From NCBI GenBank assembly GCA_015066445.1, contig SVOK01000004.1:1-64000 (forward strand): a stretch of 64,000 nt of DNA, given 5' to 3'. Source of the stretch: Oscillospiraceae bacterium (GTDB lineage Bacteria > Bacillota > Clostridia > Oscillospirales > Acutalibacteraceae). The notes under the pieces are model-generated. The model did not search any database, was not told the DNA's origin, and worked only from the letters and a program-made list of their open reading frames with translations. The position numbers and the translations under genes were made by a program. Numbering within the stretch: position 1 is the first letter of the stretch; every line of letters begins with the position of its first letter. Below, in pieces: positions 44,174 through 46,466 of this stretch.

Positions 44174-44311
44174 TATGTAAAACACTTCCCTTATTTTAAA
44201 AATTTGCATAAAAATACTTATTTATTATACTAAAATCACGCATTTTCGTCAAGCTTTTAACAACCCTCACAATTATATAGGAAAATTATTTAAAATTATT
44301 TAACTTAGATG

Positions 44312-44340
44312 TTGACTTTTTAAAATCTTTATGTTAAAAT
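44312..44340 (+). promoter_or_regulatory. Promoter for tRNA-Ser(UGA)
   Basis: TTGACT, 17 nt, TAAAAT just upstream. Confidence 0.65.
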
Positions 44341-44355
44341 ACTTTAGTCGCATTC

Positions 44356-44444
44356 GGAGAGGTATCGAAGTGGTCATAACGAGGCGGTCTTGAAAACCGT
44401 TTGGGGGCAACCCCACATGGGTTCGAATCCCATCCTCTCCGCCA
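44356..44444 (+). tRNA. tRNA-Ser (anticodon UGA)
   Basis: GGAGAGG/CCTCTCC acceptor, loop CTTGAAA, long variable arm, TTCGAATCC T-arm, GCCA end. Confidence 0.95.
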
Positions 44445-44459
44445 TTTATTTTAATATTA

Positions 44460-44516
44460 ACAATTTAATATAAAATACAACGTATAGCATCTGGAGTAGT
44501 ACTCAAGTTGGTGACG
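44460..44516 (+). repeat. 57-bp direct repeat copy 1 (tRNA-Ser upstream region plus first 24 nt of the tRNA)
   Basis: Identical to 44668-44724: acaatttaatataaaatacaacgtatagcatctggagtagtactcaagttggtgacg. Confidence 0.95.
44493..44516 (+). pseudogene. Truncated 5' fragment of tRNA-Ser(GCU)
   Basis: ggagtagtactcaagttggtgacg equals nt 1-24 of the intact tRNA at 44701, then runs into the 116-bp element. Confidence 0.9.
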
Positions 44517-44631
44517 GGCATTGAGCACGAGCGCTGCCTGCGGCAGATGAAGCGAGTGTGAAATGGCGCAGCGGTCGAAATTTTTTTGGCGCTCCAAGCC
44601 TTTAAAAAATTTCGGGCACCGCAAGAGGGCA
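44516..44631. repeat. Hairpin-rich ~116-bp element, copy 1
   Basis: gggcattgagcacgagcgctgcctgcggcag...gcaagagggca; differs from copy 2 by one substitution and one T-run indel. Confidence 0.93.
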
Positions 44632-44667
44632 CGTTCGCCGAGGAACTCCTAAAAAATTAATGTGTTT

Positions 44668-44724
44668 ACAATTTAATATAAAATACAACGTATAGCATCT
44701 GGAGTAGTACTCAAGTTGGTGACG
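44668..44724 (+). repeat. 57-bp direct repeat copy 2
   Basis: Identical to 44460-44516. Confidence 0.95.
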
Positions 44725-44794
44725 AGGCGCCCCTGCTAAGGGCGTAGGTCGGCTAAACCCCGGCGCGAGAGTTCGAGTCTCTCCTACTCCGCCA
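44701..44794 (+). tRNA. tRNA-Ser (anticodon GCU)
   Basis: GGAGTAG/CTACTCC acceptor, loop CTGCTAA, long variable arm, GTTCGAGTC T-arm, GCCA end. Confidence 0.95.
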
Positions 44795-44799
44795 GACAG

Positions 44800-44836
44800 A
44801 AAGCATCGATTAAGTTCGGTGCTTTTTATTTTTATA
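44800..44836 (+). terminator. Intrinsic terminator after tRNA-Ser(GCU)
   Basis: aagcatcgattaagttcggtgctttttattttt. Confidence 0.7.
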
Positions 44837-44870
44837 TTATATATATTCTCGAACTCGAGCGCCGAGACGT

Positions 44871-44985
44871 GGGCATTAAGCACGAGCGCTGCCTGCGGCA
44901 GATGAAGCGAGTGTGAAATGGCGCAGCGGTCGAAATTTTTTGGCGCTCCAAGCCTTTAAAAAATTTCGGGCACCGCAAGAGGGCA
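44871..44985. repeat. Hairpin-rich ~116-bp element, copy 2 (115 bp)
   Basis: gggcattaagcacgagcgctgcctgcggcag...gcaagagggca. Confidence 0.93.
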
Positions 44986-44988
44986 AAA

Positions 44989-45008
44989 GAGTCTCTCCTA
45001 CTCCGCCA
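44989..45008 (+). pseudogene. 3' fragment of tRNA-Ser(GCU) (T-arm/acceptor/GCCA)
   Basis: gagtctctcctactccgcca identical to 44775-44794. Confidence 0.88.
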
Positions 45009-45032
45009 GATAAAACAGTGGCGAATATAACT

Positions 45033-45061
45033 GAGGCACACTTCCTTACGGAGTGTGCCTC
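45033..45061. terminator. Intrinsic terminator
   Basis: gaggcacacttccttacggagtgtgcctc hairpin between tRNA region and convergent MATE gene. Confidence 0.7.
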
Positions 45062-45080
45062 TATATGAATATTTTTTATT

Positions 45081-46466
45081 TTATTCATTTGATACTATAT
45101 TTCTTATCCATACTCCCTTTTTAACAAATATATATCCGATAATACATTTAATTAAATTGATTAGCTGAACAATTGCATAAAGCCAAAGAATATTAAGCGA
45201 GGTGAAATTGCTTAGCACAAAAGCTACAGGCACACTTACCACCCACATATAACCACTGTCAAACACAAAGGTTATTAGTGTTTTTCCGCCCGAACGCAGG
45301 GTAAAATAAGTAGCATGAGCAAAAGCATCAATAGGCATTACAATAGCGCATATCTGCATTAGCTTTGTTGCGGTGTCACGCACCTCATCGGGGTAGTTAT
45401 AAGCCTTTGGTATAAATATAGCACACACGAAGAATACTATTCCGACAATAACGCTCACAAGCACAGAGAACATTATTAGTTTGCGGCAGGTATCCATTGC
45501 ACCTTTTTCGTCCTTTGCGCCAAGCTGTTGACCGAGCAAAATACCGATAGCAACACCGACCGCCATAAAAGCAACAGAAAAAACATTGAAAAAGGTCTGG
45601 AGAATATTATTAGCCGCCACAACTTCTATACCACGAGCTGAATAACATTGATTAACCGTAGCAATACCCATACTCCAAAGCGCCTCATTAAGCATTAAAG
45701 GCATACCCTTTTTTATAATTTCTTTTACAAGGTTAGCAGGAACATACAGACTTCTATATACGCCGATAATAAAAGGGCTGTTTTTAGCCGTCATACGAGT
45801 CCAGATTATAATTATTACAAGCTCAACATAGCGTGAAGCAACTGTAGCGATAGCGGCGCCCTTAACACCCAGGGCGGGCGCACCGAAATGCCCAAAAATC
45901 AAAATATAGTTAAATACTAAATTTGTTACTACCGCAATACTACCTGCCACCATTGGAAGTACAGGTCTGCCACATTCTCTGAGAGTTCCCGAATAGCATT
46001 GTGACAACGCAAACGGCACCAAGCCAATGAGCATAACATTAAGATAATCCCTTGCTTCTTTTAAAGTGATAACAGGGTCAACATTGCCACTTTCCCCTTG
46101 CAGGTAAAGATTTATAAGCGGTTTGCCCGCAACAATAAACAAAACCACCGCTAATACCGAAAGAATTAAGCTTATAATAAGTTTAAAGCGGAAGGTGTGG
46201 CGAACACCGTTATTATCACCCTTGCCAAAAAACTGCGCACCAAAAATACCCGCACCTGAAATAGCTCCAAAAATGCAAAGGTTAAACACAAATATAAGCT
46301 GGTTTGTAACCGTTACACCCGAACTTGAAGCGATATCAAGTCTGCCAACCATAATATTATCAAGCATATTAACAAGGTTGGTAATGCCGTTTTGAAGCAT
46401 TATCGGTAATGTAAGCGCTAACACCTTTTTATAAAAAGCCTTATCGCCTATATATTTTCTAATCAT
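45081..46466 (-). CDS. MATE family efflux transporter
   Basis: MIRKYIGDKAFYKKVLALTLPIMLQNGITNLVNMLDNIMVGRLD; ATG at 46466 preferred. Confidence 0.9.
   Translation of the reverse strand: MIRKYIGDKAFYKKVLALTLPIMLQNGITNLVNMLDNIMVGRLDIASSSGVTVTNQLIFVFNLCIFGAISGAGIFGAQFFGKGDNNGVRHTFRFKLIISLILSVLAVVLFIVAGKPLINLYLQGESGNVDPVITLKEARDYLNVMLIGLVPFALSQCYSGTLRECGRPVLPMVAGSIAVVTNLVFNYILIFGHFGAPALGVKGAAIATVASRYVELVIIIIWTRMTAKNSPFIIGVYRSLYVPANLVKEIIKKGMPLMLNEALWSMGIATVNQCYSARGIEVVAANNILQTFFNVFSVAFMAVGVAIGILLGQQLGAKDEKGAMDTCRKLIMFSVLVSVIVGIVFFVCAIFIPKAYNYPDEVRDTATKLMQICAIVMPIDAFAHATYFTLRSGGKTLITFVFDSGYMWVVSVPVAFVLSNFTSLNILWLYAIVQLINLIKCIIGYIFVKKGVWIRNIVSNE

Follow-up and report, generated by a model that had tools for sequence, protein, structure and literature searches.

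A folded element beside tRNA genes of a clostridial order shares the anatomy of the E. coli tyrT/RtT repeats

Known repeats at tRNA genes and the serine tRNA locus

The closest described counterparts are the 178-bp RtT repeats (RF00391), which lie in tandem behind the tRNA of the tyrT/tyrV locus. In E. coli K-12 the order within a repeat is GGGGAAGGATGAGAAGCTTCGA, AAGGTTCG, a folded insert and AATCCTTCCCCCACCACCA, where GGGGAAGGATGAGAAGCTTCGA is antisense to the T-arm (score 13 versus 5.6 for shuffled sequences, sd 1.0), AAGGTTCG is a sense T-arm piece and AATCCTTCCCCCACCACCA corresponds to the final 19 nt of tRNA-Tyr up to CCA; the tyrT locus scores 133-138 bits against the RtT model. RtT has been reported to be released from the tRNA operon and to have stringent-response effects (PMC4986893), and RtT-like elements have been counted among the BIMEs (PMC2965389). 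The tyrT/RtT repeats have long been known, without a general explanation.

We analysed 64,000 nt of contig SVOK01000004.1 from an Oscillospiraceae bacterium (GCA_015066445.1; Clostridia, Oscillospirales), referred to here as the window. Downstream of a promoter-like site (TTGACT-17-TAAAAT, 44312-44340, a consensus match only), it carries in tandem intact genes for tRNA-Ser(UGA) (44356-44444) and tRNA-Ser(GCU) (44701-44794), these and the further features of the locus being on the forward strand. Between the two genes lies a unit composed of a first copy of the tRNA-Ser(GCU) 5' flank (U, 44457-44492), nucleotides 1-24 of this tRNA, which breaks off where the D-loop ends (T5, 44493-44516), and a first copy of an element that we term E, in its 5' form (44516-44631). 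There follow GAG and ACTCC (44640-44649), which could re-close the D-stem and pair with the acceptor sequence GGAGT, respectively, and a second copy of the flank (U', 44657-44700) that leads into the intact gene. U and T5 belong to a 60-nt direct repeat (44457-44516 and 44665-44724, 98% identity). The minimum free energy fold of the T5-E unit does pair GGAGU with ACUCC, with a z-score for the whole fold of only -1.4. Behind tRNA-Ser(GCU) we found a predicted hairpin resembling an intrinsic terminator (44798-44827), then 17 nt antisense to nucleotides 61-77 of the same tRNA (44848-44864; 3' strand of the variable arm, 5' strand of the T-stem and T-loop), shortly thereafter the second copy of E, in its 3' form (44871-44985), and finally nucleotides 75-94 of the tRNA, from the T-loop to CCA (T3, 44989-45008). 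The two E copies are 98% identical by BLAST and differ by one substitution and one indel in a T-run. The preliminary description of this locus had overlooked the antisense stretch, but its placement of tRNA-Ser(GCU), the repeat with nucleotides 1-24, both E copies and the tRNA 3' end proved correct to within a few bases. It had also considered a chimeric transcript, which is plausible for the 5' copy, no terminator being predicted across this copy between the promoter-like site and the tRNA; the 3' copy is located beyond the predicted terminator. The motif ACAATTTAATAT (44669-44680) or near variants of it occur just 5' of many tRNA or pseudo-tRNA starts in the genus.

The 3' form in the window has the same anatomy as RtT, and in both cases the last part of the unit repeats the 3' end of the tRNA beside it. 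Sequence and covariance model differ: the RtT model gave no match at E<=1 in positions 44200-45300 of the window and none at E<=0.1 at six other E loci. The earlier lack of a match to any named class thus holds as far as the RtT covariance model is concerned, but not for the anatomy. In E. coli, RtT comprises the 3' form alone at one tRNA locus, whereas the system described here includes a 5' form as well, involves many isoacceptors, can occupy either flank of a single tRNA, comprises three families of elements and extends to sites in protein genes. The same anatomy, found with different inserts at many tRNAs of a distant order, turns a single-locus curiosity into a comparative problem.

Three other kinds of sequence resemble E in part. 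The Rickettsia palindromic elements are palindromic repeats of 100-150 bp that preserve the frame within ORFs and occupy the same site in orthologs (PMC3767692); E resembles them in length and in keeping the frame in one clear case, a palindromic insertion in a permease gene (see below). This likeness is one of description, between unrelated lineages, and neither tRNA halves nor antisense copies of the target are reported for the Rickettsia elements (PMC3767692). Like REP/BIME and IS200/IS605-derived elements, E is small, has a hairpin near each end and lacks a clear short target duplication, but it does not reach REP-type copy numbers. A Y1 transposase as partner of E was considered and rejected, as neither the E motif or hairpin nor shared ends were found at or near 30 Y1_Tnp loci sampled in the genus. 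Integrase attachment sites, finally, likewise have a tRNA fragment on one side and an intact tRNA on the other, but E differs from them in its conserved insert of about 110 bp, its preference for the D-loop and the lack of an integrase: in the loci read, units measure ~200 bp, and the tRNA repeats enclose neither an integrase gene nor any larger element. Repeats flanking tRNAs can therefore pass for tRNA pseudogenes or att sites.

Fold, distribution and tRNA neighbourhood of E

E is ~110-116 bp long and, in the structure derived from 27 copies, comprises P1-P2, a long hairpin termed P3 and the tip of P3 as its three parts. Changes on both sides were observed for 24 of 35 pairs, amounting to 126 two-sided cells versus 41 in shuffled alignments. 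A later harvest of 64 distinct copies, aligned by fitting to the model and having a few copies in common with the model's own set, yielded 424 versus 142. Covariation persists inside single locus classes (99 versus 34 for Pro-CGG, 40 versus 11 for Ser-GCU). It is this covariation on which we base the structure, since single-sequence folding was not significant, neither for E by itself (z -0.58) nor for the E-tRNA units. G-U pairs make up ~1% of the P2-P5 pairs, compared with 3.4% in tRNA acceptor stems, a weak hint at pairing on the DNA level. Rfam 15 contains no family matching E in scans of window positions 44200-45300 and six other E loci, and our literature search returned no paper on chimeric tRNA/structured RNA in this bacterial group. 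The covariance model, R1, thus provides a searchable model for a folded element missing from Rfam.

With copies picked by model score in MAG assemblies and viewed in contexts of ~1-2 kb, R1 matches 52 of 61 genomes in the genus and 93 of 299 across the order, at about 1-12 copies per genome. Under strict filters E was absent from about 246 sampled genomes of the phylum outside the order; a phylum-wide draw of 249 gave matches in the window's own genome and in one more of the same order. E is apparently confined to this order, with one weak match each in phage and plasmid collections. The genome of the window contains two more copies, adjoining tRNA-Pro(GGG) and tRNA-Leu(UAG).

Among 91 copies in the genus, 65 have a tRNA gene on the same strand (up to 300 nt away on the downstream side or 130 nt on the upstream side) and a single one has a tRNA on the opposite strand only, the expectation being about 1% for either strand. 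The remaining 25 have no tRNA in reach, for some of them because the contig ends. Copies that do not adjoin a tRNA are numerous in families further removed (G289, G333). The suggestion that the element targets or travels with tRNA-Ser genes is hence strongly supported and its enrichment next to tRNAs confirmed, though not for tRNA-Ser alone. Many genomes of the genus carry the same tRNA without E.

Two forms of the unit can be distinguished. In the 5' form, the tRNA flank and 5' end are followed by E, a short stretch, the repeated flank and the intact tRNA, with the break in the D-loop or anticodon loop. The 3' form, downstream of the intact gene, consists of an antisense tRNA arm, E and the tRNA 3' part up to CCA, and was seen at Met, Ser, Asn, Pro, Trp and Leu tRNAs. 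The 5' break is constant for a given tRNA: nt 23 in Pro(CGG), 22 in Leu, 24 in Pro(GGG), about 24 in Ser(GCU), 18 in Ser(CGA/UGA), 20 in Trp and Ala, and 37 (mostly) or 19 in Pro(UGG), so that the D-loop is the dominant site. The two sides of the serine locus had been read as one duplicated tRNA-element chimera with an embedded gene. We could not support this reading because they are separate unit types, each of which is found by itself elsewhere, both at different tRNAs and in different genomes; a split tRNA gene of the joined order T5-E-T3 was never met, the break being in the D-loop on the 5' side and in the T-loop on the 3' side.

Long direct repeats (median 49 nt) surround 101 of 144 E copies, as opposed to 1 of 60 control positions. 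Repeats as strong as those of the window were found for 65 of 77 copies in the genus versus 1 of 60 controls, and therefore cannot be attributed to chance; tandem units (~200 bp) also occur. The stretch adjoining E is antisense to the break region of the tRNA that the unit accompanies. Its mean local score is 11.1 in the 3' form (5.3 shuffled, 5.8 against other isotypes) and 6.8 in the 5' form (4.8 for both). The pattern is clearest at Leu (GGCAG-[E]-ACGCA..TGCG-G-CTGCC), at Pro(UGG) (GTTTTGG-[E]-CCAAAAC) and in the 3' form at Pro(GGG), in which 23 of 26 nt are antisense; the targets in Pro(CGG) and Pro(GGG) are near-palindromic, so that sense and antisense are poorly distinguishable there. 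For the 5' form at Ser(GCU) the score was not raised (4.3 versus 4.6), and in these units GAG and ACTCC could re-close the D-stem and acceptor stem in place of the antisense stretch.

On a tree of the 91 copies, which is based on 110 columns and has low resolution, the tRNA label requires 42 changes (66 when shuffled). After removal of the target-influenced P1 columns, the values are 41 versus 57 for the tRNA label and 71 versus 79.5 for the genome label. E copies thus track the tRNA locus more than the genome, which implies that recent transposition is rare in the genus. Between species, E at the same locus is 72-80% identical and the adjoining 22 nt are 70-79% identical, while the identity of the remaining spacer is near the shuffled level.

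Sites outside tRNA genes and further tRNA-linked elements

In a permease gene of genome G135, E forms an in-frame insertion of 111 bp; the insertion point follows GG, and six related gene copies are empty exactly there. Several genomes of genus g112 have a copy of E at the stop codon of an ABC-permease gene, a site that is empty in G395 and G386; this copy shows switches of the whole P1 stem (AAAGTTGC/GCAACTTT versus AAAATCCC/GGGATTTT). These two empty-site cases are the only ones, and neither has long duplications. A 5'-form unit was also found at the start of a protein gene in two genomes (L232 in G356:C21 and L236 in G011:C8), which, judging from its start sequence, we take to encode mini-RNase III. 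Here the duplicated 5' end of the gene is followed by E, GTCCCCGA(C) and the intact gene, GTCCCCGA(C) being the antisense of the intact GTCGGGGAC. Fragments of spoVT-like gene starts are split by E, mostly after AACAGG (L113 and L116 in G169, L142 in G251, L210 in G337), and appear to be stray pseudogene pieces. G023 and G032 (L213-L215, L225, L226, L230) harbor an E subfamily whose copies, several in each genome and nearly identical, are embedded in a longer repeat off tRNAs; this is perhaps a recently mobile form.

Two further families have units in the 3' form. E2 (128 nt) follows Pro, Leu, Gln, Arg and Lys tRNAs at a distance of 60-75 nt, in the order antisense T-arm, E2, T3, with the break in the T-loop (for example G000:C17:9358-9485, L001 and L294, and G000:C32:36498, L323). 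Almost every full copy read is linked to a tRNA; one near a contig end is not. E2 includes the palindrome AACAGTCCGGTGGACTGTT, which is widely scattered through these genomes. E3 was found behind tRNA-Ser(GCU) in four genomes (G012, G011, G033 and G025; L030, L036, L037 and L040), and its antisense stretch matches each genome's own T-loop (GTTCAAGTC/GACTTGAA, GTTCGAATC/GATTCGAA, GTTCGAGTC/GACTCGAA). By eye, E2 and E3 units also stand behind terminators. A different arrangement, termed array F (L119, G139:C1:1860000-1862600; also L010, L016 and L058), contains tRNA-Pro 5' parts split in the anticodon loop, in units of about 190 nt with GACCACA repeats resembling integrase arm sites and no integrase in view.

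Origin of the E units

How such units form is now constrained by the fixed breaks, the strand bias, the antisense copies and the empty sites. We consider it somewhat more probable than its negation that E is a small palindromic mobile element which prefers tRNA loops and leaves behind RtT-like units that are inherited with their pairing kept. E would be non-autonomous, or have a partner yet to be found, and would enter DNA directly after, or near, GG, with a strong preference for the sense strand of tRNA gene loops, the preferred targets being loops exposed in highly transcribed tRNA genes. An insertion there would persist only if an intact tRNA gene remained. On one side of E, the tRNA and its flank would be partly duplicated, and sequence antisense to the intact target would come to adjoin E; the interrupted arm would thereby extend into a longer hairpin, to which E contributes a third arm. 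The antisense stretch would copy the target in its uninterrupted state, which either fold-back synthesis or selection for hairpin closure might achieve. Later, the copies would be inherited with the tRNA under maintenance of base pairing, and some would be multiplied in tandem or, as in the window, copied across the gene to its opposite flank. Movement of E itself, its movement as a DNA hairpin and this order of events are what we infer; folding at the DNA level is favoured by the same-strand bias, the GG at the site, the empty sites, the scarcity of G-U pairs and the position of 3' units behind terminators, each an indirect indication. Against mobility speaks that no transposase or recombinase could be linked to E, that copies cluster by tRNA locus, that empty sites are limited to two cases without long duplications and that the antisense score is not raised in the 5' form at Ser(GCU).

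The conservation of E and the next 22 nt beside near-random spacers is equally compatible with a functional RNA, in which case the 5' units would be co-transcribed, excised during tRNA maturation and act as stable small RNAs or as cis regulators of their own tRNA, as claimed for E. coli RtT. We regard this as rather unlikely. The compensatory changes inside the Pro-CGG and Ser-GCU classes, the location of E on the strand of the tRNA, the 5'-form unit at the mini-RNase III-like gene start and the operon product with stringent-response effects reported for RtT (PMC4986893) would all fit. However, the 3' units of E, E2 and E3 are located behind terminators, the identical tRNA does without E in many genomes of the genus, E also resides within a protein gene and at other non-tRNA sites, and G-U pairs are rare. 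A guide-RNA variant, with sense S1 and antisense S2 around E, was rejected, having no support beyond the flanking sequences.

Less probable still is that the units are remnants of attachment sites of integrative elements that used tRNA arms as integrase core sites. Breaks do fall into the D-, anticodon and T-loops, and two of these three belong to the sublocations classically used by integrases; the neighbouring array F also splits tRNA-Pro copies in a like manner; yet D-loop breaks predominate, the insert is conserved and folded, tandem ~200-bp units occur without any integrase, and the permease insertion is in frame. Plain tandem duplication of tRNA genes, followed by decay and insertion of a common intergenic repeat into the dispensable copies, would account for the direct repeats around most E copies and for the tandem units. 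We deem it very improbable because random decay would yield neither break points that are identical per isotype across species nor E3 antisense stretches that track each species' own T-loop. As for misassembly, which the preliminary description had raised, the genome that contains the window is a draft assembly in 42 contigs, and tandem units often stand at contig ends. Nevertheless, further genomes of the genus, among them G007, G013, G016, G340 and G354, show the order T5, E, intact tRNA-Ser as well, so that the locus is not an artefact of assembly; since the anatomy is found in many independent assemblies, including the single-contig genome G139 and E. coli K-12, this explanation is refuted for the general feature and retains a negligible probability.

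Returning to E as a mobile palindromic element, it is conceivable, though we would not presume it, that E, E2, E3 and E. coli RtT are convergent or related members of one tRNA-addressed class, defined by a folded body at the junction of the target arm and an inverted copy of the uninterrupted target. If true, a single class would imply one dedicated fold-back (hairpin) insertion mechanism in distant bacteria. In the window, the two E copies are each other's nearest relatives on the tree of the 91 genus copies; because they are sisters, one probably derived from the other by copying or conversion across the tRNA.
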